Assembly: GCF_003384935.1 (NCBI RefSeq)
Contig: NZ_QTTQ01000011.1
Span: 310,001-374,000, forward strand
Reading direction: 5' to 3'
Source of the DNA: Lutibacter oceani
GTDB lineage: Bacteria > Bacteroidota > Bacteroidia > Flavobacteriales > Flavobacteriaceae
DNA length: 64,000 nt
In this document: in pieces, positions 9,136 through 64,000 of the stretch
Numbering within the stretch: the first letter of the stretch is position 1
How the letters are laid out: the number at the start of each line of letters is the position of its first letter
Made by a program: the position numbers and the translations under genes
The notes under the pieces: model-generated
What the model saw: only the letters and a program-made list of their open reading frames with translations
What the model was told of the DNA's origin: nothing
Databases searched by the model: none

Positions 9136-9160
9136 CTGAAATGCTAATTTTGTATGGCTG

Positions 9161-9168
9161 CAAATATA
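9161..9168 (-). promoter_or_regulatory. Predicted -7 element of truA
   Basis: Minus-strand TATATTTG is a perfect TAnnTTTG, 25 bases before the TTG start at 9135. It decides the truA start against ATG 9174. On the plus strand a one-mismatch element CATATTTG (9172-9179) overlaps this region and may serve the divergent gene, so the two promoters would be back to back. Confidence 0.6.
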
Positions 9169-9202
9169 AGGCATATTTGTGAGTTTAATTTTTCAAAATA
9201 AA

Positions 9203-9697: not shown

Positions 9698-11433
9698 TAT
9701 ATAATTGGAACCGATATAAAAATTCGTGTTCCTTCATTTGTAGATTTTATATTTAGCAATCCGTTTAACATTTTTATTCTTGCTTTTATTTGACTTAACC
9801 CTATTCCGCTTTTAACTTCAATTTCATTTTCATTAAAACCAACTCCATTATCAAAAACAATAATTTGTAAATTTCCATTTAGTTGTTCTAACTTTATAGT
9901 TCCATTTTTAGCTTGGCTATGCTTTAAAATATTATTAACCAATTCATTTATTATATTAAATATTTTTATTTCAAAATTTTGATTGAAACGTTCTATATTT
10001 TTCGAATCACTTTTTAATAATATAGTTGAATTGGAAGATTTTTCACATAAATCCTGTATTGCTACACCTAAACCAAATTTTAATAAAACAGATGAAATTA
10101 ATTTATGAGATAAATCTCTTATTTGCTCTGAAGCTTCTTCTAAAATATTTTGCGCCTTATCAATTTCAACTGGCAGCTTATCTTTCAATTTCTTTTTACT
10201 GGCATATAAATGCAAATTAGTTGCAGATAGCAATGCACTTACATTGTCATGCAGTACATTAGCTATTTTTTTACGTTCTTCTAACCCACCATCTAAAGTT
10301 GCTACTAAAATTTTAGCTTGTGAATCACTTTTTATTTTTTCAATCTTATTTTGATTTAGTAGCTGTTCTTGACTAATTTGAAGCGCGTGGTTTTTTTTGC
10401 TTAATTTATAAAGTTTATATAAAAAATAAATACCTGTTAAGAGTACTAAAATTGCAAAACCTAATCCATATGTTAAAACTTCGGCATCTCTTCTTTTTGC
10501 TTTTTCAATTTCAGTTTCATTTTCCTTGGTAGCCAAACTATATTTGGATTGAATTTCGGCAATTTCCTTGTATTTAAGTTCTTGCTGTAAAGAATCATTT
10601 AAAGAGAAAAATTTGTCTTGATACTCAAATGCTTTTTTATAGTTTTTAAGCCCACTATAAGCATAAGCCATATTTATAAAAGAGGTATTTCGGGTTTGTT
10701 TCTGCAAATCGCTTTGTCCATAACCAACTAAATTAAAAGCCTGTTCAAACATTTCTAAAGCATTTTTATAATTACCTTGCATATAATATACACCTCCAAG
10801 ATTATTTAAAATTCCGGCTTCAATATCTTTATTCCCTAAAGTTTTCTGAAAATCTGCAGCAATTTTAAAATTTTCAATTGCACTTTCATAATCCCCATTT
10901 AAATAAAAAATTCCAGATAAATTAGCATAAATTTTGGCTTTTAAATCTTCCTTACCTTCAATATTTTTATTAAAAGAAATTGCCTTTTCATAATTAAATT
11001 TTGCAGAATCTATTTGGCTATCTAACTGAAAATTGCCTCCTTTTTTAAAATAAATATATTGAAGGTTTTCATAGTCGTTAGAAATTGAAGGTATAATGCT
11101 ATTAAATATTTCCGTTGATTTTTTATAATCACCATTTTCGCGAAAAATATCTGCTAACAAAATATTGCCTTCAATAATTAATTTTGTTTCATTATTTTTT
11201 TTAACAACTTCAATAAATTCATATAATTTTTCTAAGGCTTCTTCTGTATTTCCTTGTTCAATAAGTTCTTTAATAAATTTTATTCTTTCATCATCTGAAT
11301 AAAATAAGTCAGCATCAATTTTGCTAACAATAATTTCATTACTAAATTTTGCAAAAACATTATAATTTACTAACTGAAAAAAAATAAAAAATAATACTAT
11401 TATTTTGAGTTTAAACATTTTTAAATATGACAA
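9694..11433 (-). CDS. TPR-containing sensor histidine kinase (HisKA_3 type)
   Basis: A 579-residue sensor. An N-terminal signal or anchor (about 8-28) leads into a periplasmic region of tetratricopeptide repeats (about 50-290, with NNLGGVYYMQGNYKNALEMF as a clear repeat). A membrane helix near 318-340 and a coiled coil follow. The HisKA_3 dimerisation box ERKKIANVLHDNVSALL carries phospho-acceptor His395. The HATPase_c domain has NELVNNILKHSQA, DNGVGF and SGIGLSQIKARI. It lies 15 bases downstream of its cognate NarL-type regulator. The signal sensed is unknown; TPR sensors in Bacteroidota often bind proteins or peptides. Confidence 0.93.
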   Translation of the reverse strand: MSYLKMFKLKIIVLFFIFFQLVNYNVFAKFSNEIIVSKIDADLFYSDDERIKFIKELIEQGNTEEALEKLYEFIEVVKKNNETKLIIEGNILLADIFRENGDYKKSTEIFNSIIPSISNDYENLQYIYFKKGGNFQLDSQIDSAKFNYEKAISFNKNIEGKEDLKAKIYANLSGIFYLNGDYESAIENFKIAADFQKTLGNKDIEAGILNNLGGVYYMQGNYKNALEMFEQAFNLVGYGQSDLQKQTRNTSFINMAYAYSGLKNYKKAFEYQDKFFSLNDSLQQELKYKEIAEIQSKYSLATKENETEIEKAKRRDAEVLTYGLGFAILVLLTGIYFLYKLYKLSKKNHALQISQEQLLNQNKIEKIKSDSQAKILVATLDGGLEERKKIANVLHDNVSALLSATNLHLYASKKKLKDKLPVEIDKAQNILEEASEQIRDLSHKLISSVLLKFGLGVAIQDLCEKSSNSTILLKSDSKNIERFNQNFEIKIFNIINELVNNILKHSQAKNGTIKLEQLNGNLQIIVFDNGVGFNENEIEVKSGIGLSQIKARIKMLNGLLNIKSTNEGTRIFISVPIIY

Positions 11434-11447
11434 GGAAGTTAAATTTA

Positions 11448-12107
11448 TTAAACAATGTTGTTTTTAATGGCATAAATGGCAAGACCAACAACATTTTTTA
11501 CTTTTAATTTATGAATTAAATTTTTTCGATGAGTTTCTACAGTATTTATGCTTATATGGAGGGTTTTACTAATTTCATTTGAATTATACTGTTTACAAAT
11601 TAGTTTAAGTACATCTGTTTCTCTTGGAGTTAATGGACTAAAAAATGTGCCGTCTTGAGATATTTTATCAATACTCAAATTATTTTTTGTGAAAGAGGAT
11701 AGTAATTTATCCTTAACACTTTCACTAAAGTATTGTTTTCCACAGTAAACAGCATTTATTGCTTCAACAATATTTTCGCCAGCGCATTTTTTAGCTAAAA
11801 ACCCATTTGCTCCAATTTTCAGCACTTCTTTAATTAGTTTTGCATCATCATAGCTTGAAAGCACAATAACTTTTTGCTGAAAACCACTTTTCACAAAACT
11901 CTGCAAAACAGCAATTCCATCAACTTTTGGCATATTAATATCTAAAATTAAAATATCAGCTTCATTTAAAGCAAACCAATTTAAAACATCTTCGCCGTTG
12001 AGTGAACTTCCAACAACTTCAATATTATTTTCAGAAGATAAAACTGCATTAATACCATCAATTAATAGTTGATGATCATCTGCAATATGAACTTTGATCT
12101 TTCTCAT
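11448..12107 (-). CDS. Response regulator, NarL/LuxR family
   Basis: A 219-residue transcription factor. The receiver domain (about 3-125) has the acidic pair D10-D11, phospho-acceptor Asp56 in ILILDINMP, and Lys in LAKKCAGENI. The C-terminal LuxR-type HTH (about 153-215) reads LTPRETDVLKLICKQYNSNE followed by HISINTVETHRKNL. It is the first gene of the two-gene operon with the TPR kinase at 9694-11433. A -7 element TATATTTG (12121-12128) precedes it, and an imperfect dyad at 12151-12168 could be an autoregulation site. Confidence 0.94.
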   Translation of the reverse strand: MRKIKVHIADDHQLLIDGINAVLSSENNIEVVGSSLNGEDVLNWFALNEADILILDINMPKVDGIAVLQSFVKSGFQQKVIVLSSYDDAKLIKEVLKIGANGFLAKKCAGENIVEAINAVYCGKQYFSESVKDKLLSSFTKNNLSIDKISQDGTFFSPLTPRETDVLKLICKQYNSNEISKTLHISINTVETHRKNLIHKLKVKNVVGLAIYAIKNNIV

Positions 12108-12120
12108 AATTTTCCCTTTT

Positions 12121-12128
12121 CAAATATA
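12121..12128 (-). promoter_or_regulatory. Predicted -7 element of the response regulator/kinase operon
   Basis: Minus-strand TATATTTG is a perfect -7 match, 13 bases before the ATG at 12107. An imperfect dyad ATCACTAAAAGTAATGAT at 12151-12168 is centred about 45 bases upstream of the expected transcription start, a position suited to an activator. Confidence 0.5.
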
Positions 12129-12200
12129 TTACTTATTAAAACTTTAAACTATCACTAAAAGTAATGATATTTTTGCATCACCAAAAACCGTTAGAAACAA

Positions 12201-12231
12201 AAAACCATTTTAATAAAATTAAAATGGTTTT
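12201..12231 (-). terminator. Terminator after the DUF4293 gene
   Basis: Perfect 14-base-pair stem AAAACCATTTTAAT / ATTAAAATGGTTTT with a three-base loop. On the minus strand the stem is followed by T-rich sequence. It lies 31 bases past the DUF4293 stop and separates it from the next operon. Confidence 0.75.
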
Positions 12232-12261
12232 CCTTGCACTAAATATACTAAGATGTTAGGT

Positions 12262-12696
12262 TTATCGCAATCTATCCACAGATTTTACAAGTTCCTCATC
12301 CTTTTTAATTGCTTTATTAGCTAATACTACTAAAACAATTGTAAAAATTGGAATAAGCAACCCAATACCCTTCTCTGAAACGTTAATTTCTCCAGATAAA
12401 TTTTGTGCAAAATATACGAGAATACCTAATAAAATAAAATTGATCAAAATTGTTAATCGCCCCAAAACAAATTGCAATTGTCTTTTCTTATACTGAAAAA
12501 TAGCTACAATTGTTATTAGTGATGATATAAAAAATAGTACTGACATTATATTTAATAATGTGTTGTTTGTACTAAATGAATCAATTACAAAAAATTTAAC
12601 TCCTTCATTATTAGTCCATAAATTCAAAAGAAAAATTAATCCTCCAGAAAATAAGGTTGCTAATAGTAAATAAATAGTTTGTACTCTTTGAATCAT
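12262..12696 (-). CDS. DUF4293 membrane protein
   Basis: A small integral membrane protein of 144 residues with four helices (about 7-27, 43-62, 74-93, 105-127) and a charged C-terminal tail. The N-terminus MIQRVQTIYLLLA is the characteristic beginning of the Bacteroidota DUF4293 family. I use the ATG at 12696. A start at 12717 would sit inside the -7 element at 12715-12722. The gene is divergent from rho, an arrangement I recall as common in Flavobacteriaceae. Function is unknown. Confidence 0.85.
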   Translation of the reverse strand: MIQRVQTIYLLLATLFSGGLIFLLNLWTNNEGVKFFVIDSFSTNNTLLNIMSVLFFISSLITIVAIFQYKKRQLQFVLGRLTILINFILLGILVYFAQNLSGEINVSEKGIGLLIPIFTIVLVVLANKAIKKDEELVKSVDRLR

Positions 12697-12714
12697 ATTA
12701 AAAATATTCGGACA

Positions 12715-12722
12715 CAAAAATA
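12715..12722 (-). promoter_or_regulatory. Predicted -7 element of the DUF4293 gene
   Basis: Minus-strand TATTTTTG matches TAnnTTTG and lies about 19 bases upstream of the ATG at 12696. It rules out the longer reading from 12717. Confidence 0.5.
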
Positions 12723-12768
12723 CGTTTTATTTTTAAAGATTTAAACTTTAATATGTAAAATAATTTTA

Positions 12769-12776
12769 TATATTTG
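12769..12776 (+). promoter_or_regulatory. Predicted -7 element of rho
   Basis: TATATTTG is a perfect -7 match. The expected transcript would start near 12783, leaving a leader of about 125 bases before the rho ATG. The leader is A/C-rich and G-poor, of the kind Rho itself can bind, so attenuation by Rho is possible but unproven. Confidence 0.55.
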
Positions 12777-12908
12777 CAATATCAATTGTATACAACAAAG
12801 CAATTTAACTACAACTAAAACAGCTAATCACCACTTAGTTTTAATCACAAAAAAAATTCTTATAAAGAATAACAAATTACGTATTTATATATTAACACAA
12901 ATAACATA

Positions 12909-14585
12909 ATGTTTGAAATTTCCCAACTAAAGGAGAAAACTCTTGTAGAATTACAAGAGATAGCAAAAACTATTGGAGCAAAAAAATACAGTCAGCTTAA
13001 AAAATTAGATTTAGTTTATTTAATATTAGACATTCAAGCTTCAACCCCACAGAAAGTAACGAAAAAAGAACCTTTAAATAGTGATAACAAGCCAAGACGA
13101 AAAAGAATCGTAAAAAAAGCTGTTGCACCAAAAGGACAAAAACCAGTAGCTGCTGAGCTACCAAAAAAGGAAGCAGCAACTGAAATAGCAGCTAATGTTG
13201 CTAAACCCGAAGTTAAAAAAACGGTTAATACAATGGCTGCTAAGCCAAAAACTGAACCCGTTATAGTTAAAGAATTAGATAATTCAGATAAAACTGAAAA
13301 ACCTAATCCACCTAAAAGCAAACAACAAGCCAAACCAGCTCAAAATCAGCAAAATACAAATCAACCGAACAGACCAAAACAACACCAAAATAAACAACAG
13401 GTAAATCAGCCTAGAGATAATAAAGGTCAACGCAAAAATGGAAATCGCTACAGAGATCCAGATTATGAATTTGACGGTATTATTGAAAGTGAAGGCGTTT
13501 TAGAAATGATGCCTGATGGGTATGGTTTTTTACGTTCTTCAGATTATAATTATTTATCATCACCTGATGATATTTACTTATCGCAATCTCAAATAAAATT
13601 ATTCGGATTAAAAACGGGTGATACTGTTAAAGGTGTAGTGAGACCTCCAAAAGAAGGAGAAAAATATTTTCCATTAATTAGAGTTTCAAAAATTAATGGG
13701 TTAAACCCAAATGTAGTTAGAGATCGAGTTTCTTTTGAACATTTAACACCATTATTTCCTCAAGAGAAATTTAATTTAGCAGGTAAATCGAACACATTAT
13801 CAACAAGAATAATAGATTTATTTTGCCCAATAGGAAAAGGACAAAGAGGTATGATTGTTTCTCAACCTAAAACCGGGAAAACAATGTTACTTAAAGATAT
13901 TGCAAATTCAATTGCATCTAATCATCCTGAAGTGTATCAAATAATTTTATTAATTGATGAACGTCCTGAAGAGGTTACAGATATGCAGCGCAGCGTAAGA
14001 GGTGAAGTTGTAGCTTCAACTTTTGATGAACCTGCTGAAAAGCATGTAAAAGTTGCAAATATTGTTTTAGAAAAAGCAAAAAGATTGGTTGAATGTGGAC
14101 ATGATGTAGTTATTTTATTAGACTCAATTACACGTTTAGCCAGAGCCTATAACACCGTAGCACCAGCATCTGGTAAAATTTTATCAGGAGGTATTGATGC
14201 TAACGCTTTGCACAAACCAAAACGCTTTTTTGGTGCTGCACGTAATATTGAAAATGGAGGTTCTTTATCTATTATTGCTACAGCTTTAACAGAAACTGGT
14301 TCAAAAATGGATGAAGTAATTTTTGAAGAATTTAAAGGAACAGGTAATATGGAACTTCAATTAGAAAGAAATATTGCTAACCGTAGAATTTATCCAGCTA
14401 TTGATTTAGTGAAATCTAGTACCCGTAGAGATGATTTATTGTTAGATGAAAAAACAGTAAAACGTATGTGGGTATTAAGGAAGTATTTAGCAGATATGAA
14501 TCCAGTTGAAGCTATGGAATTTATTAAAGATAAAATTCAATTTACAACTTCAAACGAAGAGTTTTTAATTTCTATGAACGGATAG
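12909..14585 (+). CDS. rho: Transcription termination factor Rho, with long basic insertion
   Basis: Hexameric RNA helicase/translocase that ends transcription. The 558 residues exceed the usual 420. Residues 1-45 are the Rho_N helical domain ([20 protein letters not shown]). About 48-185 form a low-complexity insertion rich in Lys, Asn, Gln and Pro. About 190-265 form the cold-shock-like RNA-binding domain ([19 protein letters not shown]). The rest is the RecA-type ATPase. Walker A is SQPKTGKT at 318-325. The catalytic region [12 protein letters not shown], the Q-loop [11 protein letters not shown] and the R-loop region are intact. Such insertions are known in Bacteroidota and Actinobacteria Rho and tend to add RNA affinity. 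Confidence 0.97.
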
Positions 14586-41772: not shown

Positions 41773-43962
41773 ATGAGAAAAATACTTATCCTGTTTATAG
41801 CTATAACTTCTTTAGCTACAGCCCAAAAAAAAGATATTAAAATTGAAGAAATTTGGAATGGTTCATTCAGAACTGAACGTATGAATTCACTAAATTCTAT
41901 GAATGGTGATTTTTATACACTTTTGAATTTCAACAACATATTTAAAAATTCAACAATTGACAAGTATAGTTATGCAACTTTAGAAAAAGTTGAAACCATA
42001 GTTGACAGTAAAAATTTAGAGGCTTTAAATTACTTTGAAAGTTATAGTTTTAACAATAATGAAACTAAATTAATTTTAGGAATAGACGCTGAACCAATTT
42101 ACAGACACTCTAGTTTGGGTGTTTATTATGTGTATGATATTGTTTCAAAAAAATTACAATTAATTGACACCGATAAAATTCAAGAACCTACATTTTCTCC
42201 TGATAGTAAAAAAGTAGCATACGCAAAGGGCAACAATATTTTTGTTAAAAATTTAGAAACTAATAGTGTTACTCAAATAACTACAGACGGATTAAAAAAT
42301 AACATAATTAATGGTATTTGTGATTGGGTTTACGAAGAAGAATTTTCTTTTGTTAGAGCTTTTGAATGGAGTGGAGATAGTAAAAATATTGCGTTTTTAA
42401 GATTTGATGAATCTGAAGTTCCAACTTTTTCTATGGATATTGTTGGTTCAGAATTATATCCAAAACAACAAGTGTTTAAATACCCAAAAGCAGGAGAAAA
42501 AAATGCTGTTGTAACATTGCATCTTTACAATATAGAAACTAAATACACTTCAAAAATAAATTTAGGAGATTATGAATATATTCCAAGAATAAAGTGGACA
42601 AATAATTCAAACATTTTATGTGCTACAACTTTAAATCGTCATCAAAATAATTTGAATTTGTATTTTGTAAATGCTTCGGATTTTTCTTCAAAAGTTGTTT
42701 TAAATGAAACTGATAAAGCTTATGTTGACATTAATGATAACTTAACATTTTTAGAAGATAATAGCTTTATATGGACTAGTGAAAAAGATGGATTTAATCA
42801 TATTTATTATTATGATGAAAATGGGAATCTAATAAATCAAGTTACAAGTGGAAATTGGGAAGTAACCAATTTTTATGGTGTAAATGAAAAAACAAAAACT
42901 GTTTATTACCAATCGGTTGAAGATGGATCAATTAATAGAACTATTTATTCCATAAAATTAGATGGAACTGACAAAAAACGTTTAACCAATGATTCTGGAA
43001 CAAATAAAGCAGCATTCAGCAAAAATTTAGACTATTTTATTAATACTTTTTCAGATGCAAATACACCTCCAATTTACACACTTCACAATGGGAACGGTGA
43101 ACTTTTAAAGGAAGTTTTAAACAACAATAATCTATCAAAAAAATTAGCCTCCTATAAATTATCAGAAAAAGAATTCTTTACACTTCAAACAAAAAACGGC
43201 GAATTTAATGCCTGGATGATAAAACCTGTAAATTTTGATTCAAATAAAAAATACCCATTATTTATGACTCAGTATTCTGGACCAGGATCACAGTCTGTTA
43301 GTAATAGCTGGAATGGTGCAAATGATTATTGGTATCAACATTTAGCGCAACAAGGCTACATAATAGTTTGTGTTGATGGAAGAGGAACAGGATTTAAAGG
43401 TGCGGATTTTAAAAAAGTGACTTATAAAGAATTAGGTAAATATGAAGTTTTAGATCAAATTGAAGCCGCTAAAAAATTAGGTGAAAGATCTTATATCGAC
43501 AAAAATGAAATTGGTATTTGGGGATGGAGTTATGGTGGCTTTATGTCTAGCAACTGTTTGTTAAAAGGAAACGATGTTTTTAAAATGGCTATAGCTGTTG
43601 CTCCAGTAACTAGTTGGCGCTTTTACGACAGTGTTTATACAGAACGTTATATGCAAACACCACAAGAAAACCCAAGTGGATATGATGAAAATTCCCCACT
43701 AAACTTTGCTCCTTTATTAAAAGGAAAGTTTTTGCTGGTACACGGTTCTAGTGATGATAATGTACATGTACAGAATACAATGCGTTTAACAAATGAATTA
43801 ATAGCCGCAAATAAACCTTTTGATCAGGCGATTTATCCAGACAGAACTCACGGAATTTATAGAGGAATAAATACGAGATTACATTTATACAATAAAATGA
43901 CTACATTTATCAAAGAAAATTTAAGTAGTAAAAAACAAACAGTAGAATTACTAAATCAATAA
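41773..43962 (+). CDS. Prolyl oligopeptidase family S9 (dipeptidyl peptidase IV-like)
   Basis: A 729-residue secreted peptidase with a signal peptide (about 1-17, ending LATA|QKK). It has an eight-bladed propeller region (about 60-480, DPPIV_N) and a C-terminal alpha/beta-hydrolase domain. The triad is visible: Ser586 in GWSYGG, the Asp pair at 661-662 in SSDDNVHVQ, and His693 in DRTHGI. The propeller contains WVYEEEFSFVRAFEWS, whose double Glu binds the substrate N-terminus in DPP IV. It probably removes X-Pro dipeptides in the periplasm or at the surface. The three peptide transporters immediately downstream would import the products. Confidence 0.94.
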   Translation: MRKILILFIAITSLATAQKKDIKIEEIWNGSFRTERMNSLNSMNGDFYTLLNFNNIFKNSTIDKYSYATLEKVETIVDSKNLEALNYFESYSFNNNETKLILGIDAEPIYRHSSLGVYYVYDIVSKKLQLIDTDKIQEPTFSPDSKKVAYAKGNNIFVKNLETNSVTQITTDGLKNNIINGICDWVYEEEFSFVRAFEWSGDSKNIAFLRFDESEVPTFSMDIVGSELYPKQQVFKYPKAGEKNAVVTLHLYNIETKYTSKINLGDYEYIPRIKWTNNSNILCATTLNRHQNNLNLYFVNASDFSSKVVLNETDKAYVDINDNLTFLEDNSFIWTSEKDGFNHIYYYDENGNLINQVTSGNWEVTNFYGVNEKTKTVYYQSVEDGSINRTIYSIKLDGTDKKRLTNDSGTNKAAFSKNLDYFINTFSDANTPPIYTLHNGNGELLKEVLNNNNLSKKLASYKLSEKEFFTLQTKNGEFNAWMIKPVNFDSNKKYPLFMTQYSGPGSQSVSNSWNGANDYWYQHLAQQGYIIVCVDGRGTGFKGADFKKVTYKELGKYEVLDQIEAAKKLGERSYIDKNEIGIWGWSYGGFMSSNCLLKGNDVFKMAIAVAPVTSWRFYDSVYTERYMQTPQENPSGYDENSPLNFAPLLKGKFLLVHGSSDDNVHVQNTMRLTNELIAANKPFDQAIYPDRTHGIYRGINTRLHLYNKMTTFIKENLSSKKQTVELLNQ

Positions 43963-44007: not shown

Positions 44008-45501
44008 ATGACTGACAAAACTATAAAAAAAGGACATCCTAAGGCGTTATATACGCTATTTGCTACTGAAATGTGGGAACGATTTAGTTACTATGGAATG
44101 CGTGCGTTACTTACTTTATATCTTACTGCTGAATTAGCGAATGGAGGTTTTGGATTAAACAGAGAAGAATCCTTAGCCATTTATGCAATTTTCACCGGTT
44201 TAGTTTATCTGACTCCTATTCTTGGTGGTTGGGTTGCCGATAATTTTTTAGGCAAACGAAAAACGGTTTATATTGGTGGATTGGTTATGGCGGTAGGGCA
44301 GTTTTTACTTGCTTCTAGTGCATTTATGGCACATTCTTTAGATCCAGTAACTCGTTTATTTGTTTTTAATTTAGGTTTAGGTGTACTTATTATTGGAAAT
44401 GGCTTTTTTAAACCTAATATTTCAACTATTGTAGGAGATTTTTATGATGATAACGATCCAAGAAAAGATTCAGCATTTAATATTTTCTACATGGGTATTA
44501 ACCTTGGTGCTATTTTAGGTCCATTTATTGCTGGTGCATTAGGAGAAAACGTATCTTGGGGATGGGGTTATTTTGCTGCTGGAGTTGGTATGATAGTAGG
44601 TGTTCTTTGGATGAAATCTAGAGAAAGTTCATTAGAACAAAAAGGACTTCCACCAAATTCACCTGACAATAAATTTGTTTTAGACAGTAAAGATTGGCGT
44701 GATATTTTTGTATATGCAATTGGATTAATTGTTGCTACTTTTATAGTTGTATTTCTTTGGAGAATGCTACCAGATAATGTAACTAGTATAATTACTTATA
44801 TTGGTTTTGCAGTTGGAATTATTGGCTTAGGTTATGTCATTTTTAAAGGAACTAATGGTTCTGCTGAATGGAGCCGTATGATTGTAATTTTGGTACTTGC
44901 ATTTTTTAATATTGCTTTTTGGGCCGGCTTTGAACAAGCAGGAGGAACTATGAATTTATTTGCAAAAGAAAACACTGACAGGCTTCTTTTTGGCTGGGAT
45001 GTACCTGCAACCTGGTTCCAAAATATAAATCCTATTGCTATTTTAATTTTCGCTCCAATATTTTCAGTAATGTGGTTAAAACTAGATGCAATGAAATTTA
45101 ACCCAAGAACACCTATTAAATTTGCAATTGGTTTGTTTTTAGGTGCTTTTGCATTTTGGATTATGACACAGGCAAGTAATGCAGCTGATGGTGGAAACTT
45201 AGTTTCACCTTGGTGGTTAGTAGTTGTTTATGTTGTATTAACATTAGGAGAATTGATGCTTTCACCAATAGGTCTTTCAATGATAACAAAACTAGCTCCA
45301 AAAAAATTAGTTTCAGTTGTCATGGGATTATGGATGGCAAGTTTTGCAGCAGGTAACTATTTAGCAGGGATGTTAGAAAGTATTTTACACAAATATGATT
45401 TTGACCTTTATCCATTTATTACAATGTTAATGTTAGGTTCTGGTATTTGTTTAGTTGTTTTATCTCCTTTCTTAAATAAAGCAATGAAAGGAATTCACTA
45501 A
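44008..45501 (+). CDS. POT family proton-dependent peptide transporter 1
   Basis: A 497-residue MFS-type transporter with 12-14 helices. The POT signature FATEMWERFSYYGMRALL (ExxERFxYY) stands near residues 13-30 and GNGFFKPNIST near 130. EQAGGTMNLFAKENT in the TM7-TM8 region is the second conserved segment. It lies 45 bases after the peptidase gene and imports di- and tripeptides by proton symport. A strong terminator follows its stop. Confidence 0.95.
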   Translation: MTDKTIKKGHPKALYTLFATEMWERFSYYGMRALLTLYLTAELANGGFGLNREESLAIYAIFTGLVYLTPILGGWVADNFLGKRKTVYIGGLVMAVGQFLLASSAFMAHSLDPVTRLFVFNLGLGVLIIGNGFFKPNISTIVGDFYDDNDPRKDSAFNIFYMGINLGAILGPFIAGALGENVSWGWGYFAAGVGMIVGVLWMKSRESSLEQKGLPPNSPDNKFVLDSKDWRDIFVYAIGLIVATFIVVFLWRMLPDNVTSIITYIGFAVGIIGLGYVIFKGTNGSAEWSRMIVILVLAFFNIAFWAGFEQAGGTMNLFAKENTDRLLFGWDVPATWFQNINPIAILIFAPIFSVMWLKLDAMKFNPRTPIKFAIGLFLGAFAFWIMTQASNAADGGNLVSPWWLVVVYVVLTLGELMLSPIGLSMITKLAPKKLVSVVMGLWMASFAAGNYLAGMLESILHKYDFDLYPFITMLMLGSGICLVVLSPFLNKAMKGIH

Positions 45502-45533
45502 AATATGAAAACAATCTATTAAAAATAATATTC

Positions 45534-45570
45534 AAAAAAAGCTCAAGTATTTTCGTACTTGAGCTTTTTT
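45534..45570 (+). terminator. Intrinsic terminator after the first POT gene
   Basis: Stem AAAAAAGCTCAAGTA / TACTTGAGCTTTTTT with a TTTTCG loop, 33 bases past the stop. It lies just before the second POT gene and covers a TTG that would otherwise be an earlier start for it. Confidence 0.9.
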
Positions 45571-45588
45571 ATTCTAAAAACTAAACTA

Positions 45589-47070
45589 ATGAGTACAAAA
45601 AATAAATCTTTTTTTGAAGTAATGAAGTCTTATAACAAGAACTTCTGGGTTGCAAGTGCAATGGAATTATTTGAACGTTGGGCTTGGTATGGACTTTTTG
45701 CAGTATTAGCCTTATACCTAACTGGATCTACGGATGAAGGTGGTCTGGGTTTTACACATACAGAAAAAGGACAAATAATGGGTATTGTAACAGCAATTTT
45801 ATACTTACTCCCAATGATTACAGGTGTAATTGCTGATAAAATTGGATACAAACTTTCATTAATAATAGCATACGTATTATTAATTACCGGCTATTATTTT
45901 ATGGGAGAAGTTTCAAGCTATACATCTGTATTTTTAGTTTTTTTATGGGTTGCTGTTGGAGCCGCAATGTTTAAACCAGTTGCTTCTGCAATTATCACTA
46001 AAAACACTGACAAATCAAATTCAACTTTAGGTTTTGGTATTTTTTATATGATGGTAAATATAGGAGGTTTTATTGGTCCAGCATTTTCATCAACATTAAG
46101 AACACAATATGGCTGGAAAATTGTTTTTCTTCAAGCTGCAATTGTAATAGGAATTAACTTATTAATTTTAATATTCTTTTATAAAGAAGCCGATAGGGTT
46201 AAAAAAGAAGAATCTATTGCTGATGCCATATCAAGTTCCATAAGAAATATTTGGGAAGCTGTAAAAGACAGCCGCCTATCTGTTTTACTTGTAATTATGG
46301 TAGGTTTTTGGACTATGTTTAATCAATTATTTTATACACTTCCTACTTTTATTGAAGATTGGGTAAACACAAAAGCATTGCATGATTCAATAGCTCAAGT
46401 TTCTCCTTGGTTAGCAAGTTTTATGAGTGGTGGTGGGAATTCTATAAACCCAGAAATGCTTATAAATTTAGATGCTGGTTCAATTATATTATTCCAATTA
46501 ATTGTTTCATATTTTGTATTAAAAATGCGTCATGTTAGTGCAATGATTACAGGATTTATTATTGCTTCAATTGGTATTGGTATTACATTTTATACAGGAA
46601 ACGGCCTATATACTATTTTAGGAATTATGATTTTTGCAATTGGTGAAATGATGACAAATCCAACTTTCTCTTCATTTATAGCTTTAATTTCCCCTAAAGG
46701 AAAAGAAGCATTATATATGGGTACTTATTTTTTACCTATATTTTTAGGTAATTTTTTAACAACATTTGTTTCTGGTAATTTATACCAAGCTTGGTCAGAC
46801 AAATTAAGTTTGCTTCAAACAGAAATGGGTAATCGGGGCTTGGAAATGCCTGAAGTAACAAAAGAATTTACTAAAAACGATTATTTTGCTTTAGCCTCTG
46901 AAAAATTGGAAATGACACAAACTCAAATGACCCAATTAATTTGGGATACATATAACCCAAATAAAATTTGGTATGTAATTGTTGCAATTGGTGTTGTTAC
47001 AATTTTAGCTTTAACAATTTATGACAGGGTTGTAATTAGACCTAAGGAAGCTGCTGAAAAAGTGGCTTAA
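45589..47070 (+). CDS. POT/MFS peptide transporter 2 (divergent signature)
   Basis: A 493-residue membrane protein of the POT family with about 12-14 helices. The signature is altered: SAMELFERWAWYGLFAVLALYL has ExxERW in place of ExxERF. The FKPVASAIITKN segment stands where FKPNxS is usual. The TM7 region has GFWTMFNQLFYTLP instead of the FEQAGGS-type motif. It may therefore carry a different substrate or use different coupling. The ATG at 45589 (MSTKNKSFFEV) is chosen because the earlier TTG lies within the terminator. It has 18 bases to the next POT gene. Confidence 0.88.
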   Translation: MSTKNKSFFEVMKSYNKNFWVASAMELFERWAWYGLFAVLALYLTGSTDEGGLGFTHTEKGQIMGIVTAILYLLPMITGVIADKIGYKLSLIIAYVLLITGYYFMGEVSSYTSVFLVFLWVAVGAAMFKPVASAIITKNTDKSNSTLGFGIFYMMVNIGGFIGPAFSSTLRTQYGWKIVFLQAAIVIGINLLILIFFYKEADRVKKEESIADAISSSIRNIWEAVKDSRLSVLLVIMVGFWTMFNQLFYTLPTFIEDWVNTKALHDSIAQVSPWLASFMSGGGNSINPEMLINLDAGSIILFQLIVSYFVLKMRHVSAMITGFIIASIGIGITFYTGNGLYTILGIMIFAIGEMMTNPTFSSFIALISPKGKEALYMGTYFLPIFLGNFLTTFVSGNLYQAWSDKLSLLQTEMGNRGLEMPEVTKEFTKNDYFALASEKLEMTQTQMTQLIWDTYNPNKIWYVIVAIGVVTILALTIYDRVVIRPKEAAEKVA

Positions 47071-47088
47071 TTCAAAATATTTTCATTT

Positions 47089-49119
47089 ATGAACAAATCT
47101 TCAAACGAATTTTTCAAAACTCAAGTATTAGGGCATCCAACAGGTCTATTTGTACTATTTTTTACTGAAATGTGGGAACGTTTTTCATTTTATGGAATGC
47201 GTGCTTTATTGGTTTTATTTTTAGTAAGTGCATTAGGAATTGGTGGCTGGGATTGGCCTAGAGAAAACGCTTTAGCATTATACGGAACCTATTTGGCATT
47301 GCTGTATTTAACACCAATAATTGGAGGTACTTTGGCCGATAAATATTTAGGAAATAGAAATGCAATTATTATTGGAGCATTAATTATGACGCTTGGACAC
47401 GCAAGTATGGCTGTGGAATCTAATCCGTTTTTCTTGTATTTAGGCTTAGGGTTATTAGTTATTGGAACTGGTTTTTTTAAACCAAATATGACTTCCTTTA
47501 TTTCAATTCTTTATAAAGATTTTCCTGAGAAAAAAGATGGTGCATACACAATATTTTATATGGGTGTAAATGCTGGAGCTTTTTTAGGAATTATGCTTTG
47601 CGGTTACTTAGGTGAAATACTCGGTTGGAGTTGGGGATTCGGATTGGCTGGTATTTTTATGTTGTTGGGTTTATTGCAATTTTTATTTGCGCAAGGTATT
47701 TTTGGAGAAGTTGGTAAAAAGCCAAATAAGATAGATAAAACTATTGAAACTGATGATCATACAGAAATTGAAGATAAATTAAATCCGTTTACAATTATTG
47801 ATAAAATATTAATAATAATTGTTGCAATTGCAGGTTTAACTTGGGTAATAAATGATCCCTTATCAAAAATTGGGGATTTTAACTTATTAAGTTTTGGTGG
47901 TTCAGATTTTTCAAATACTACTATCATAATTACGTTAATTCTATTTGTGTTTTTATTAGGTTCAAGGATAATTAGGTATAGTAGCATTACCAGAGATAAA
48001 ATGATTGCTGTTGTTATATTTGCCTTTTTCATAATATTCTTTTGGGCTTCATTTGAACAAGCCGGTGGTTCTATGAGTATTTTTGCAAAAGACTATACAA
48101 ATAGAGTGTTATCAGGTAATTCCGCATTAATTTTTAATATTGTTGATATTATTATTACAGTTGTTCCAATAGCAATTATAACTTATGTATTGTTTTTACT
48201 GTTTAAACAAACCTATAAAAAATACATTATTTCAAATTTAATTTTAGGATTTAGTTTTGTACTGATTTGGGTTATTGTTGTATGGAAGATATACAATAAC
48301 TTCAATACTTACTCGTATGAAATCTCTTATAAAACTTATCAAATAACTGAAACTAATACTACTGGAGATAAAGTTGTAAAAGATTTTGCTATTACGGCCG
48401 AAACTGTTATTCCTGAAAACGCGCAATTAATAGATAATTTAACAGTGATAAGATCTTCAAATGATTTTGTAAAAAATGATAAAATTTCTATTATTGATTT
48501 GGATAAAAAAGGAACAAATTTTAAATATTTATCTGATGAACAAGCCGAATTAATCAGCACAAATATTTCGGCAACAATTATAAGAAAAAAAGAAAATGAA
48601 ATTCAAATTCCGGCAACGTGGTTTTTAATTTTAAATTCATTATTTATAATTGCATTTGCGCCTTTATTTTCAAAATGGTGGGAAAGTAAATACAATCCAA
48701 AACCAGCAAACAAATACGCAATCGGATTGTTTTTCTTGGGTATTGGTTTTGCATTTTTAGCTTACGGAGCATCAGGAATTCCACAAGGGGCAAAAACGGC
48801 TTCAGTAAGCATTATTTGGCTAATTCTTGCTTATTTATTTCATACGTTGGGTGAATTATGTGTGTCGCCTGTTGGTTTATCATATGTTAGTAAATTAGTA
48901 CCTCCACGTATGATTGCCTTTATGTTTGGTGTATGGTATTTAGCCTTGGCAATTGGAAACAAAACATCGGGTAAATTAGGATCAATGATTGATGATATCA
49001 CTACAAAATATGATATCTCAACCTTCTTTTTAATATTTACATTTGTACCAATTATTATTGGTATTATTGCAATTCTATTAAACCCTGTTTTAAAAAAATT
49101 AATGCACGGAGTAAAATAA
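47089..49119 (+). CDS. POT family peptide transporter 3 with large insertion
   Basis: A 676-residue protein, about 170 longer than usual. The N-terminal signature FFTEMWERFSFYGMRALL and FFKPNMTSF are canonical, as is SFEQAGGSMSIFAKDYT. Between that segment and IPATWFLILNSLFIIAFAP lies an insertion with two extra hydrophobic segments (about 350-372 and 380-402) and a soluble polar domain of about 95 residues (405-505). In POT proteins this loop between TM7 and TM8 faces the periplasm, so the inserted domain probably does as well. It is the third transporter in the cluster with the DPP IV-like peptidase. Confidence 0.92.
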   Translation: MNKSSNEFFKTQVLGHPTGLFVLFFTEMWERFSFYGMRALLVLFLVSALGIGGWDWPRENALALYGTYLALLYLTPIIGGTLADKYLGNRNAIIIGALIMTLGHASMAVESNPFFLYLGLGLLVIGTGFFKPNMTSFISILYKDFPEKKDGAYTIFYMGVNAGAFLGIMLCGYLGEILGWSWGFGLAGIFMLLGLLQFLFAQGIFGEVGKKPNKIDKTIETDDHTEIEDKLNPFTIIDKILIIIVAIAGLTWVINDPLSKIGDFNLLSFGGSDFSNTTIIITLILFVFLLGSRIIRYSSITRDKMIAVVIFAFFIIFFWASFEQAGGSMSIFAKDYTNRVLSGNSALIFNIVDIIITVVPIAIITYVLFLLFKQTYKKYIISNLILGFSFVLIWVIVVWKIYNNFNTYSYEISYKTYQITETNTTGDKVVKDFAITAETVIPENAQLIDNLTVIRSSNDFVKNDKISIIDLDKKGTNFKYLSDEQAELISTNISATIIRKKENEIQIPATWFLILNSLFIIAFAPLFSKWWESKYNPKPANKYAIGLFFLGIGFAFLAYGASGIPQGAKTASVSIIWLILAYLFHTLGELCVSPVGLSYVSKLVPPRMIAFMFGVWYLALAIGNKTSGKLGSMIDDITTKYDISTFFLIFTFVPIIIGIIAILLNPVLKKLMHGVK

Positions 49120-58778: not shown

Positions 58779-60878
58779 ATGAAAAAATTAAGCATCCTTA
58801 TTTTTTTTGTGTTTACAACCGCTATGTACTCACAAAAGAGGGCAAATGAATTAGACAAAAGTAATTCTAGTCTGGTTGAAGTTTTGGTATCTACGGGTAT
58901 TTCCTCAGCCACCTCAACATTTAGTGATAATTCTTATGCTGCTGATGGTAGTTTTTTTGAATTATCGTCAACCTATTATTTTTCTAAAATTGGACTAGGA
59001 GCTTCCCTTGGAAGTTTTTCAAACCCAACAGAAGGAAACCTATTGAAATTTGCTGAAAAAGTAGCATATCCTATTGAATTTAATTCAGAAAAATGGAAAA
59101 CCACTTACTACGGTATTGGCCCAAGTTATAAAACAAATATCGGTAGTTTAGAAGCAATTATTTTTGCACAAGTTGGTAGTATGTCGGTAAAACCAATTGA
59201 CTTAGAAGGAAGTTTTAATTCCGAAAATGCAGATGCTGCAACATCTATTCCAGTTTATAATTATAGCACCAACGAAACTTCTAAAACAGGATTTTATAAT
59301 GCTGGTATTAGATTGGGTTATAAATTAAATCCAAATTTAGGATTGTACATAACTGCTAATTATTTATCAGCCTTTTCGGATAAAATTATTGCTCGGGATG
59401 GCAGCAAACAATTTGCTGACATTAACAAAGATGGCATAATAAACGAAATAGATATTATTAGACAAGATGGTGTGCTGGTAGATTTTCAATACACAGAAAA
59501 AAATATACAACCTCAAGTATTTAATTATGGCTTCGGAGTAAGTTATAGTTTTGGAAAAAGAACTATTAAAATTGGAGGAACTGAAAAACCTTATTCAAAA
59601 GGAAATTCAGATATTAATACTAAAAAACCAATGAATACAGGTTCTATTGTTTTTACAAATCCTTCAAAAGAAAATAAAAAAAGACAACAAAAATTAATAG
59701 GTATTTTACCAAAAAATAACAGCACTTTTAAAAACGCTCGTGAAATCAAAAATTTTACTTGGGAAATAATTGGTACTAAAATTCCGAATCCTCAATTTAT
59801 TATTGAAGTAACAAAAATTACAAATAACCAACAATCACAACGCACTTTTATTGAAAAAACTTCAAGCACTTCATTAAGCGCAACAAGAATTTTTAAAGAA
59901 AATAAACTAAGTGATGGGCAATACAGGTGGAAAGTAACAGAAACAACTACTGGAAACTCATCAGCAAATATGTATTTTACTTTTAGTAACTGCGAAATAG
60001 ATTTTACAATTTCAAATGAAGAAATTGAATGCTTAGGCTATGAACAGGAAAACAGAAAATATAAAATTTGTTTTGATTCAACATATTCAAGTACTTCAGG
60101 AGATTTAACCTTTGCCAATCCAGGTTCAGGCTTGTCAGTTTTCGATCAAACGTATGCACCAATATCTTATACATTGGTGAGTCCAAACCCAACAATTTTA
60201 ACTCAAATTGGAGCTTCTACCACTACTGTAAGCTATTGTTTTGAAGTAACAGTTTCAGCCAGTGTAACCCAAATTGGTTTTGGTTTACAGGGAGATGATT
60301 TAGATCCAAGTCCGGTTTTATGCCAACCAGGGGTTAGTGCCAATTTTGATGAATTACCAGACTGTATTTGTAATGAATGTGAAGAAATAGAACTCTCTTT
60401 CAATAATTTTAATATTTCGTTAAACGGAACAAGTGGCAATCAATTTAATTTTGATGGAGATATTAATGTAAACGTTCCTATTTACGGAATTGAATTCCAA
60501 ATTCAATCTTACAGTTATTCAGCTAGCCCTAATGCTTGTTCTGAAGGCGTTAGCAGTGTTGAAGAATCGGGTATGCTATTAATGCCAGGAACTACCATTA
60601 ATGGTTCAACTTCTTTACAGTTATTTAATGAAACTGCTTCTGGCAGTCCAAGTTCAAATAACAATGCAACAAAAAGCATAAAATATACCAGTAATTCAGC
60701 TTTAACTGGAGCAATTCCAGTAAATCTCACAGTTGGCTTACCAGGACCAATTTCTGGTCTTGATCCAAGTTGCTGTACTATTAATTACAGCGTTTGTATT
60801 AAAGTAAAAGTATTTTATGAAGAAAGCAATTGTAAATCGTGTGTATTTACACACTGTTTCAACTTTAATAACCAATAA
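58779..60878 (+). CDS. Outer-membrane barrel protein with Ig-like and cysteine-rich C-terminal domains
   Basis: A 699-residue protein not assigned to a known family. It has a signal peptide (1-18, ending TAMYS|QK). A beta-barrel-like region (about 30-267) ends FGFGVSYSFGKRTIKIGG; one of its loops contains DINKDGIINEID (214-225), an EF-hand/dockerin type calcium loop. A linker (268-305) leads to an Ig/Fn3-like domain (306-404) that ends SDGQYRWKVTET. A cysteine-rich domain follows (405-533) with LPDCICNEC. The last module (534-699) ends CC-x6-CIKVKV-x6-C-x2-C-x4-CF and is shared with the next protein. The gene lies 11 bases before that gene, so the two form an operon. Confidence 0.75.
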   Translation: MKKLSILIFFVFTTAMYSQKRANELDKSNSSLVEVLVSTGISSATSTFSDNSYAADGSFFELSSTYYFSKIGLGASLGSFSNPTEGNLLKFAEKVAYPIEFNSEKWKTTYYGIGPSYKTNIGSLEAIIFAQVGSMSVKPIDLEGSFNSENADAATSIPVYNYSTNETSKTGFYNAGIRLGYKLNPNLGLYITANYLSAFSDKIIARDGSKQFADINKDGIINEIDIIRQDGVLVDFQYTEKNIQPQVFNYGFGVSYSFGKRTIKIGGTEKPYSKGNSDINTKKPMNTGSIVFTNPSKENKKRQQKLIGILPKNNSTFKNAREIKNFTWEIIGTKIPNPQFIIEVTKITNNQQSQRTFIEKTSSTSLSATRIFKENKLSDGQYRWKVTETTTGNSSANMYFTFSNCEIDFTISNEEIECLGYEQENRKYKICFDSTYSSTSGDLTFANPGSGLSVFDQTYAPISYTLVSPNPTILTQIGASTTTVSYCFEVTVSASVTQIGFGLQGDDLDPSPVLCQPGVSANFDELPDCICNECEEIELSFNNFNISLNGTSGNQFNFDGDINVNVPIYGIEFQIQSYSYSASPNACSEGVSSVEESGMLLMPGTTINGSTSLQLFNETASGSPSSNNNATKSIKYTSNSALTGAIPVNLTVGLPGPISGLDPSCCTINYSVCIKVKVFYEESNCKSCVFTHCFNFNNQ

Positions 60879-60889
60879 AAATTACTATC

Positions 60890-63800
60890 ATGAAAAATAT
60901 AATATATACATTCAGAACATATATGTTGCTAGTAGTTTTATTCGCAACAACAATAAGCTATTCACAAATAGTATTAAATACTTCACCAAACATAAATACA
61001 TGTAATTTAAGTGGAGATAATGTAACAGTTTCTGTTCCAACAGAAATATTAACAGGAGATAATATTGCTTTAAATATTACCTTACCAGGTAGTTATGATG
61101 CCGGTTGTACAAAAACAGTTAGCATTACTAAATCATCAAATTTAGTTTTTCAAAGTTCAGGAGCTATTCCATTTACTGATATGGGAGGTGGAATTTATCA
61201 AAATGATGCTTCACCTACTTTAAACGGAAACGATGGACAAAATTTTAATGTCTTTTTTAAATTCCCTAATTATACAACTTGTAACGGGACAGTAGGTACT
61301 TTTGATGTTACAGTAACTTTAGATTGCGCAGGTGTTATAACAACTTGCACAACTTCAGTAAATGTAATTGCAAGAGCTGCAAATTATTGGTCTTTAACTA
61401 AAGAATTTGTAACTGGAGATTTAACTTGTGGAATTTCAAAATGGAGAATTAAATTAAATCATAACAATCCTAATGGGGCTGGACTTGGAAATTATAGAAT
61501 TGTTGGAACCATTAGCGAAAGTGCATTAGTTACAGTGCCTATTGTTGGAACTGCTTCTTATTCTGTATCAAATAACGGTGCATCTAATGGAACTTGGTAT
61601 TATAATGTTTATTTACAAAATTGTGCACCTGATGGAAGTTCAATAACAAATATTGCAGATTACAGTTTTGCTTTAGGCGATGGTACTTGTGGAACAATGG
61701 CAGGTTCAGTTACAGATACTTCGCCCCCATTGGCGAGTCCAAATGCATCTATTTCATTCACTAAATCGGTATCAAATCCAACTTATACAAATTTAACGCC
61801 TGGTTGTGATGCTCGTTATTATATTTCAGTATGTAATAATGGAAATGTACCTTGGACTGATTTACAAATTACAGATAATTTAAATATTCCCGGTATTAGC
61901 ATTACAGGAATGAATCTTGGTGGCTGGACTTCATCACCTACTGTGCCACCTTATCCTGCAACAACTTACACTTTTACCCGACCTGGTTTTATTTTAAACC
62001 CAGGAGAATGCACAACAATTTATATTGATTTTATAATAGATGCTGGCGCAACAATTGGAAGCACAATTAGTAATACTGCATATTTAAGTTATACTGCCGC
62101 TGGAACAGGTGGAGCTCCTGGAGGACTTCCAGTTGACCCTTGCCCTGGAATTAGTTGCCCAACAATAGATACAACAATTCAAAATACTGAAGATGATGCG
62201 GAATTTATTGTAGAAGCACCTAAATCGATTCCTTCAATAAAAAAATGTATTGTTGATCCACCAAATGCACTTGTTCCTCCAATTTACCAAATTGGCGATG
62301 TAATTACATATAGCATTATGGCAGGAAATTCAGGTGCTGCAGATTTAAACACAGTAATAAATGACGCATTTGGAATTCCTCAAAATTTACAAATAGTACC
62401 CGGATCAAGTGTTTTCGAATATTATCCTAACCAAAATGCTGGTTATAAAAATAGTTGTAATCCACCATTTGGAGCACCAGTTCCTCCACCATTTCCTGTA
62501 TCGGAAGATGCAACTGATTTACAAAATCCATTTTGGAATATCTCTAATATGCCTGGAATTTGTGAATGGAATAAATCTAATTTTTTAATTATCACTTTTG
62601 ATGCTGTAATATTACCACAATTATCTGGCACAAAAACAAATACTGCAACTGTTCCTTTCGGACCAAGTAGTTTAAGTAGCTCGGTAAATTACAGTATAGA
62701 TCAGGTTGGTATTTTAGGGATTTTTAAAGAAGCCGATGCAGAAATTGTTGAAAACGGACAATCATTCAACTATATTATTACAGTTTCTAATAATGGAAGT
62801 GTACCTTTAGATAACATTGTAATTACAGATCTTTTACCTGATTGTATTTCAATAAATGGACAAATTTCCATAGAAGATGAGTTTGCAACTCCAATTCCGT
62901 TTACAACATCAGGAGGTTTAATCATAAACATTAATTCTTCCACACAAATTATGCCTGGAAATGATTTTACAATCACTATTCCAGTTGTTAAATCTGGAGG
63001 AGGAAATTGTTGTAATGAAAGTGTTTCTGTAACTGCAGAAATGACAACTTCAGGAATTGAATTAAATGCAAATTATGGAAGCGAAGAAGCCCCAGCAGCT
63101 TGTGTAACGGGAACAGAATGTTGTGATATTGAAGATTTTGAAGCTTCAATTCAAGAACATAACGGTTCTTTTAATGTTACTATAAATGGAGGAAGTGTTC
63201 CTTTACAAGAAGTAGAAATATCCATGGTGGATTACCATATCGAATATTCTGAAGAAGCTTGTAAACCAACTGATTTAGGTGTTTTTGGTACTTTAACAAC
63301 TTCAACTCCAAATCTTAGTAATTTAATTTTAAATGCTGGAGATAATGGGACAAGCAGTTTAGCGTGGTTGTTAGGAAATCCTTCCATTATAAATTCATCA
63401 GTTAATTTAGATATTTTATATCCTGATGTTTTAAATTTAGACTGTTGTGATGTAGCTTTCTATTTCTGTTTAAAAGTAAAGGTTAAAGATGTAAACTGTA
63501 ATGTTTGCGAAAAAATTATTTGTTTTTCATCTGATGATCAGCAAAATAACCCAGAGCCCTGCGAAATTGACATCAAACCATTTGACCAAGGTCAAAAATA
63601 TTGTATAGGAGATACTATTAATTTAAATTGGTCTGGTACTACACCAACTGGTCAAGTTAATATCTCATTATTTGACAATACAAACGGAGTAGTTTATTCA
63701 GTTTTAGCTACTGGAATTCCAAATACTGGTGCATTTACATATACCATTCCACCATCATTACCTTGTGACCCTCCAAGATCGTGGTCATTAATTGTTGAAG

Positions 63801-64000
63801 ATGCTGAAAAATTATGCTTTGATAGAAGTGATCCATTTATTATTGAATGTTGCAATCAACATGGAGATTGTGATTGCGGAGAATGGTTAACAAATAGTGT
63901 TTTAATAAAATGGGATACTAAACAAACTCCATATAAACCAAACCAAAAAATAAACTATCAAAACTATCTTGAAAAGCAATTGGATTGTGGTAACGAAATT
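60890..64000 (+). CDS. Large secreted DUF11-repeat protein with cysteine-rich module (3' end beyond window)
   Basis: The frame is open from ATG 60890 to the right edge, 1037 residues without a stop. A signal peptide (1-26, ending TTISYS|QI) is followed by beta-rich domains. There are at least three DUF11-like repeats (about 290-430, 450-600 and 611-740, each with a (A/S)NxGxxxL or NNGxVPxxDLxITD pattern). A cysteine-rich module (744-885) closely matches the end of the upstream protein. A Ser/Thr-rich, KNH-like Ig domain follows (890-995), then a Cys-rich link (CCNQHGDCDCGEW). A long surface fibre or adhesin is inferred. A T9SS C-terminal signal, if present, is out of view. Confidence 0.8.
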   Translation, partial: MKNIIYTFRTYMLLVVLFATTISYSQIVLNTSPNINTCNLSGDNVTVSVPTEILTGDNIALNITLPGSYDAGCTKTVSITKSSNLVFQSSGAIPFTDMGGGIYQNDASPTLNGNDGQNFNVFFKFPNYTTCNGTVGTFDVTVTLDCAGVITTCTTSVNVIARAANYWSLTKEFVTGDLTCGISKWRIKLNHNNPNGAGLGNYRIVGTISESALVTVPIVGTASYSVSNNGASNGTWYYNVYLQNCAPDGSSITNIADYSFALGDGTCGTMAGSVTDTSPPLASPNASISFTKSVSNPTYTNLTPGCDARYYISVCNNGNVPWTDLQITDNLNIPGISITGMNLGGWTSSPTVPPYPATTYTFTRPGFILNPGECTTIYIDFIIDAGATIGSTISNTAYLSYTAAGTGGAPGGLPVDPCPGISCPTIDTTIQNTEDDAEFIVEAPKSIPSIKKCIVDPPNALVPPIYQIGDVITYSIMAGNSGAADLNTVINDAFGIPQNLQIVPGSSVFEYYPNQNAGYKNSCNPPFGAPVPPPFPVSEDATDLQNPFWNISNMPGICEWNKSNFLIITFDAVILPQLSGTKTNTATVPFGPSSLSSSVNYSIDQVGILGIFKEADAEIVENGQSFNYIITVSNNGSVPLDNIVITDLLPDCISINGQISIEDEFATPIPFTTSGGLIININSSTQIMPGNDFTITIPVVKSGGGNCCNESVSVTAEMTTSGIELNANYGSEEAPAACVTGTECCDIEDFEASIQEHNGSFNVTINGGSVPLQEVEISMVDYHIEYSEEACKPTDLGVFGTLTTSTPNLSNLILNAGDNGTSSLAWLLGNPSIINSSVNLDILYPDVLNLDCCDVAFYFCLKVKVKDVNCNVCEKIICFSSDDQQNNPEPCEIDIKPFDQGQKYCIGDTINLNWSGTTPTGQVNISLFDNTNGVVYSVLATGIPNTGAFTYTIPPSLPCDPPRSWSLIVEDAEKLCFDRSDPFIIECCNQHGDCDCGEWLTNSVLIKWDTKQTPYKPNQKINYQNYLEKQLDCGNEI

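Follow-up and report, generated by a model that had tools for sequence, protein, structure and literature searches.

The window, a stretch of 64,000 nucleotides from Lutibacter oceani, closes with two adjacent genes on the same strand, whose products we refer to as p1 and p2 (Table 1). Only 11 bases separate the two frames. Further upstream in the window, reading of the sequence gives a dipeptidyl-peptidase-like ORF (41773-43962) ahead of three consecutive POT-family-like peptide transporter ORFs (44008-49119, + strand). The domain order of p1 was taken from an AlphaFold2 model of the full-length protein (mean pLDDT 80.1), in which the placement of the domains is unsure because the pTM is 0.39; "FnIII-like" is a name that we chose for one of its sandwich domains. 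Foldseek matched the barrel of p1 with NspA, OmpA, OmpW, and Ail among others, the three top-ranked rows being integrins with TM below 0.15, and the Pfam OMP_b-brl model reached E 0.15 on it, below cut-off. The barrel of p1 is modeled as an eight-strand, OmpA/NspA-like one, in keeping with the initial annotation, which had described a barrel able to sit in the outer membrane. A search with the whole of p1 in 149 genomes (family sample, own genome included) returned p1 itself and a barrel-only relative (G128) and nothing else, and the module described below was therefore searched separately. No match to p1 was found in a plasmid collection.

Table 1. Features of the p1-p2 locus (window positions unless prefixed L009; all on the + strand)
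Feature	Position	Strand	Basis or remark
p1 (A-type protein, 699 aa)	58779..60878	+	ORF list and AlphaFold2 model
Domain order of p1: signal peptide, barrel, linker, FnIII-like domain, second beta-sandwich, module A	58779..60878	+	
Eight-strand barrel of p1 (predicted), residues 32-258	58872..59552	+	AlphaFold2 model, Foldseek
Two beta-sandwich domains of p1 (predicted), residues about 305-402 and 407-523	59691..60347	+	Strands in model
Module A, p1 residues 529-699, ten invariant cysteines	60363..60875	+	
p2 (B-type protein, 1327 aa)	60890..64000, then 873 bases past the window; L009:5890-9873	+	ORF and contig beyond the window
DUF11-type repeat of p2	62714..62983	+	Pfam/NCBIfam
Module B, p2 residues 744-884, nine of ten cysteines	63119..63541	+	Cys738 (first cysteine) lies just upstream
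Ig-like stretch of p2 after module B, residues about 889-985	63554..63844	+	Recurs in relatives (presence only)
Unnamed cysteine-containing domain of p2, start (CxCGxW)	63848..64000	+	Sequence past the edge
FISUMP domain, p2 C terminus	L009:9268-9870	+	PF09603, 38.7 bits (cut-off 33.9)

The second protein had been described as a long DUF11-repeat fibre continuing beyond the edge. It does run past the edge, but its DUF11 content is modest: Pfam DUF11 scores 28.9 to 29.5 bits (cut-off 24.6) over one or two stretches, and TIGR01451 matches two or three. Read past position 64000, p2 yielded neither a further copy of the module nor a T9SS tail, both of which had been looked for at the suggestion of the initial annotation, and the type B CTD (TIGR04131) gave no match in it at E 0.1. 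The C-terminal FISUMP domain scores 29.4 bits with the NCBIfam model, below the 41.65 cut-off of that model, and was also matched in 5 of 35 p2 relatives. The own genome has one reverse-transcriptase match, relevant to FISUMP as a target of diversity-generating retroelements, on a contig other than that of the pair. At the end of the window's contig, a 1699-codon open frame (G000:C3:812865-817607, - strand) carries 13 DUF11 matches.

Both proteins contain a cysteine-rich module of about 140 to 170 residues, which we call module A in p1 and module B in p2. The common pattern noticed at the outset, CC-x6-C-[IL]-K-V-K-V-x(4,6)-C-x2-C-x4-C-F with an upstream PNAC or EEAC, is exact in both proteins: p1 reads CCTINYSVCIKVKVFYEESNCKSCVFTHCF at residues 665-694 with PNAC upstream, and p2 reads CCDVAFYFCLKVKVKDVNCNVCEKIICF at residues 852-879 with EEAC upstream. 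Local alignment of p1 506-699 with p2 721-895 scores 111, a value reached by 0 of 2000 shuffles (mean 36.8, sd 6.3, maximum 68), and a BLASTP comparison limited to p1 and p2 gives E 4e-6. With phmmer, the whole proteins match weakly (best stretch E 0.007), and a profile-profile comparison of 11 p1-type with 35 p2-type modules gives 98.1% at E 9.4e-14. The modules of p1 and p2 are homologous, beyond anything expected by chance. In each, the cysteines follow the order 3-1-2-1-2-1; all ten are present in 30/30 p1-type rows, and each of the ten is present in 34 or 35 of 35 p2-type rows. Module A ends 0 to 2 residues before the C terminus in 30 of 31 A proteins, and module B is internal or near the end of the B protein.

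The modules also agree in predicted structure. AlphaFold2 models module B as a beta-sandwich (mean pLDDT 86.2), and module A inside the full-length p1 model has the same order of main strands, bearing out the similar strand order proposed earlier rather than two different folds. In both p1 and p2, the module is outside all accepted Pfam and NCBIfam matches, the best Pfam result over 35 B modules being E 0.0015 (DUF4321, 7/35), and no PDB sequence matched the module at E 1. Foldseek searches with module B gave a best E of 5.5e-3, with TM below 0.45 among the matches listed; these matches (MyfA/PsaA pilins, ACE19, and p53) were set aside as remote sandwiches only.

We scanned GTDB genomes for the B-type module and obtained 35 loci, of which 31 hold adjacent same-strand pairs of proteins with one module each. 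In all 31 pairs, the A gene comes first, with a gap of at most 22 bases or an overlap, depending on the ORF start taken. At three of the remaining loci (L104, L116, and L117), the contig stops inside B, and the fourth (L110, Sphingobacterium nematocida) is a 5'-truncated B remnant, similar to its relative from residue 429 onward only, for which no A was found in 5.5 kb upstream, as expected if neither protein is kept alone. The module profile search proposed at the outset thus found co-occurrence, and genes that are never adjacent, the outcome that would have spoken against it, were not what it returned. Carriers include Lutibacter, Sphingobacterium, Parapedobacter, Lacihabitans, Kaistella, and several uncultured Bacteroidota; the 35 loci are not independent, as 10 of them are from Lutibacter and L122 and L123 are near-copies. 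L102 (which contains letters X) and L123 were left out of A5, and L123 also out of A6 and the module tree.

Taxon-based samples gave a similar picture, although they overlap, so that their counts are not additive, and only a fraction of the first-look candidates was scored in the genome searches (e.g., 9/24), so that some carriers may have been missed. In the genus sample, 14 of 38 genomes matched, 13 with both members close together on one contig, and 0 of 38 had just one confident pair member; G172 gave one match, but its adjoining barrel protein has a divergent module, found by reading, and we count it as a divergent pair. Each of the 7 matching genomes among 397 in the family sample had matches in two neighboring ORFs, with a further remnant in G327. 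The phylum sample yielded 8 of 395 genomes: the own genome, G438, G549, and G721 with one module in each of two neighbors, G561 with two modules in each of two neighbors, and G527, G530, and G655 matched once. In the class sample (5/345), the own genome, G438, G549, and G1332 have pairs and G1313 has one module, and in the order sample a broader profile (A3) matched the own genome only, of 296. The G655 match (22 bits, falling to 14.8 with a better profile) looks like chance and was not counted as a relative.

With the better profile, the lone modules of G527, G530, and G1313 score 43.1, 52.6, and 64.4 bits, respectively, and no second module was found among the ORFs of the 14 to 17 kb stretches around them. 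The lone-module proteins of G1313 (35.5 bits) and G527 (23.9 bits) carry a type A T9SS tail (cut-off 23), and that of G530 gave none at E 0.1. Lone modules with such a tail lie at L136:7946-9262 (+) and L089:4240-7860 (+), the opposite of what the paired proteins show. At L088:3895-8610 and 9107-14266 (-), two adjacent ORFs have two modules per chain, in which both halves are perhaps fused.

What surrounds the pair varies between loci. A barrel is present in 22 of the 31 A proteins and absent from 8, and one protein is cut. The survey of barrels and Ig-like stretches was used for presence only, as Ig-type seeds cross-match, and key loci were rechecked by separate domain searches. The B heads of the window, L120, and L124 are of DUF11 type, that of L111 has seven FG-GAP repeats, and Pfam found no DUF11 in the B heads of L103, L113, L118, and L126. 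The module pair is therefore present in all four combinations: a barrel with DUF11 (the window), a barrel without DUF11 (L111 and L126), DUF11 without a barrel in A (L120 and L124), and neither (L103, L113, and L118). Genes of one large barrel-like family, separate from A, occur near the pair at L086, L087, L088, L120 to L124, and L137, the only nine loci where this family was found in a search of the ORFs of L009, L039-L051, L080-L126, and L136-L138. None of the nine has a barrel-bearing A protein, by the survey for seven of them and from reading alone for L088 and L137. At L087 and L088 the barrel-like gene also has the N-domain of the local module proteins, and the copy at L086 is incomplete because the stretch ends within it. 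From the sequences, we read this family as putative outer-membrane barrels; Pfam leaves most of its members unmatched, with one sub-cut-off DUF2120 match at L088.

Other neighbors recur as well. A separate OmpA-domain protein (PF00691) is encoded beside the pair at L120 and L124, with relatives at L121, L122, and L123. A lysyl-oxidase-like gene lies beside the pair at L051:4669-5997 (-; PF01186, 39.6 bits) and, 61% identical, at L086:8823-9470 (+). A small family with a lipoprotein-like start recurs beside the pair (L113:6745-7335, L116:1255-1887, and L118:10488-11090, +). Within A proteins, a T4 gp19-like stretch (PF06841) was matched in 3 of 30 (best E 1.1e-5), and a p1 relative at L048:4101-6629 (+) has a weak one at residues 386-425 (16.2 bits, cut-off 28.2).

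Could the arrangement be no more than an ancient tandem duplication, held together by operon inheritance, with modules that are functionally untied? Sandwich domains often duplicate, and duplication with operon inheritance would also yield adjacency. A tree of 82 modules groups 31 A modules in a single clade (100/100), and on the other side stand 40 B modules (88/71), 37 of these at 96/87. That side also has a weak group (93/63) in which divergent A modules are joined by both modules of L087 and the four of L088; the grouping of the L087 A and B modules would fit duplication, although that join is flagged as long-branch. The A and B modules thus appear mostly distinct in the tree, with long branches leaving its deepest parts unsure. 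However, the pair persists across lineages whose neighborhoods differ, and both partners swap their other domains without losing the module, which makes duplication without a functional tie highly improbable.

The predicted topology bears on where the two proteins would meet. Barrel strands 1-2, 3-4, 5-6, and 7-8 of the p1 model are joined by long loops of 12, 21, 30, and 47 residues and strands 2-3, 4-5, and 6-7 by short turns of 3, 2, and 4 residues. Long loops of such barrels usually lie outside, and as the long loops of p1 follow the odd strands, both barrel ends and module A are predicted to be periplasmic. Among the 35 B-type C termini (last 300 aa; E 0.1), none has a T9SS tail, whereas the own genome has 26 matches to the type A tail. 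The nearest approach is L087-B, with sub-cut-off matches of 15.2 bits (cut-off 23) and 14.8 bits (TIGR04131, cut-off 35), which count somewhat against the reading that we prefer below. On account of the loop pattern and the missing tails, we assign a putative A-B joint to the periplasm, but with no more than moderate confidence, because the B heads and the lone modules point outward: DUF11 and FG-GAP repeats are domain types usually found on surfaces, and the FG-GAP and similar B heads look surface-type.

The same outward-pointing evidence is what a surface fibre would predict, with p2 outside the cell, the p1 barrel anchoring or exporting it, and the module outside; the DUF11, FG-GAP, and other surface-type heads and the T9SS-tailed lone modules of G1313 and G527 fit such an arrangement. 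Against it stand the predicted periplasmic position of the barrel ends and the lack of T9SS tails in p2 and the other B proteins, and an eight-strand barrel is no known protein pore. We consider a surface fibre of this kind unlikely. The initial annotation had suggested that the barrel protein anchors or exports the fibre. Anchoring is supported by the barrel in p1 and by the putative barrels encoded beside the pair at nine other loci. Export by p1 is unsupported, because the barrel is small and its C terminus is predicted to be periplasmic; we know of no barrel of this size that passes proteins.

The reading that we favor makes p1 and p2 the halves of a modular docking pair at the outer membrane, and we assign it a probability of roughly 0.58. 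The A protein would form the outer-membrane end, with its eight-strand barrel and a C-terminal arm of three beta-sandwich domains, module A being the last, and the B protein would be exported and form a head or fibre that bears the homologous module B. The two ten-cysteine sandwiches may bind one another as a heterodimer, A with B, which would fix p2 to the outer membrane, most likely on the side facing the periplasm. The head differs between lineages (DUF11 chain, FG-GAP repeats, or other domains), and so does the anchor (own barrel, neighboring barrel gene, or none in view), with the A/B pair kept. We infer A-B binding from co-retention, domain exchange, and the presence of a barrel in A or beside the pair, and the stoichiometry, compartment, disulfide or metal link, and physiological role suggested for it are likewise inferred. 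With ten cysteines per module, five internal disulfides are possible, so that a link between A and B could form but need not. Two further observations weigh against docking: the lone modules of G1313, G527, and G530, and L103, L113, and L118, where A has no barrel and no gene of the barrel-like family is in view.

Alternatively, the modules might not bind each other, each instead binding a common third thing such as a metal, a glycan, or another envelope protein. The ten conserved cysteines of each module could hold a metal, and the lysyl oxidase or OmpA-domain proteins at some loci make third partners possible. A common ligand alone, however, fails to explain strict co-retention of A and B with distinct sequences, and we regard this explanation as quite improbable.

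For a subset of loci, docking may be under dedicated control. Eight loci adjoin a related LytTR two-component system: a regulator and a kinase lie near the pair at L104, L111, L114, L116, L118, L126, and L084, and at L117 the contig ends within the kinase gene. Domain matches at L126 are Reg_prop, Y_Y_Y, and His_kinase for the kinase and Response_reg and LytTR for the regulator. When the L104 regulator was used as the query in 12 genomes, the linked gene ranked first in six, at 46 to 59% identity; these include every directly linked genome of the close group (6/6), where the next-best matches reach 27 to 41%, except in G074 (unlinked paralogue, 50%). In the genome of L117, the best match (50%) lies at the start of another contig; in that of L124, the linked regulator is the best match, but at 36%; and in G438 the linked regulator (31%) is not the best match of the genome. 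The genomes of the window, L103, and L107, which have the pair and no linked system of this group, give regulator matches that reach 33 to 35%. LytTR matches number 2 to 19 per genome. The LytTR system is probably a regulator of the pair in one subset, the window not included. A fuller plug-and-socket scheme, in which homologous modules dock interchangeable heads on interchangeable barrels, without T9SS tails, locked by disulfides and switched by LytTR in one subset, is offered as a tentative extension that we hold to be less likely than not.

If A and B bind, they would constitute an unnamed docking pair found across several Bacteroidota genera and a way of holding large multidomain proteins at the outer membrane without a T9SS tail. 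It would also give a meaning to proteins known to the libraries used only as DUF11, or undescribed. None of the open-licence papers listed in our literature searches described the A/B pair.

Among known systems of the phylum, PorP/SprF-like barrels and type B CTD adhesins are often genetically linked, the barrel holding its partner at the membrane (PMC9143113, PMC12618676). The p1-p2 pair is alike in combining an outer-membrane barrel with an exported partner encoded by a linked gene. It differs in that 0 of 35 B C termini have the type B CTD, in that p1 is modeled as an eight-strand barrel with no PorP/SprF match (Pfam and NCBIfam, E 1), and in that the joint would consist of two homologous modules. 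Nor was the PorP/SprF family among the matches listed, of 14 families, for 30 A-type proteins (Pfam, E 0.1). With both the type B CTD and a PorP/SprF-family barrel missing, identity with that system was rejected. A covalent joint has a parallel in PorG, an eight-strand outer-membrane protein, and SprF, which are reported to be disulfide-bonded through C-tail cysteines to periplasmic GldK, with a Cys-Xaa-Cys tail in SprF and Flavobacterium johnsoniae PorG (PMC12635249). The p1 protein resembles PorG in its eight-strand barrel and its predicted periplasmic C-terminal cysteines, and unlike the short PorG/SprF tail, the cysteines of p1 would lie in a folded sandwich, and a neighboring gene product carries a homologous domain. 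We found no nearer precedent in the phylum for such a covalent link than PorG/SprF-GldK.

Like OmpA-type proteins, p1 has an eight-strand barrel in its model and by Foldseek, but it lacks the C-terminal peptidoglycan-binding OmpA domain (PF00691). Family names reach p2 only in part: it passes the Pfam and NCBIfam DUF11-type cut-offs and the Pfam Fib_succ_major cut-off, and the DUF11 and FISUMP names cover its head and tail, not the module. Cohesin-dockerin systems attach exchangeable heads to an anchor by modules that pair across separate proteins, and cohesin and dockerin are mutually unrelated. The A/B pair would be like them in principle, with heads swapped on an anchor through paired modules, and unlike them in that A and B are homologous to each other. 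It is not a cohesin-dockerin pair itself, since cohesin gave no match and Dockerin_1 reached E 0.036, below cut-off, inside the p1 barrel (residues 195-226). By analogy, then, homologous modules on an anchor and on the product of a neighboring gene would resemble, in principle, the known anchor-and-head systems.
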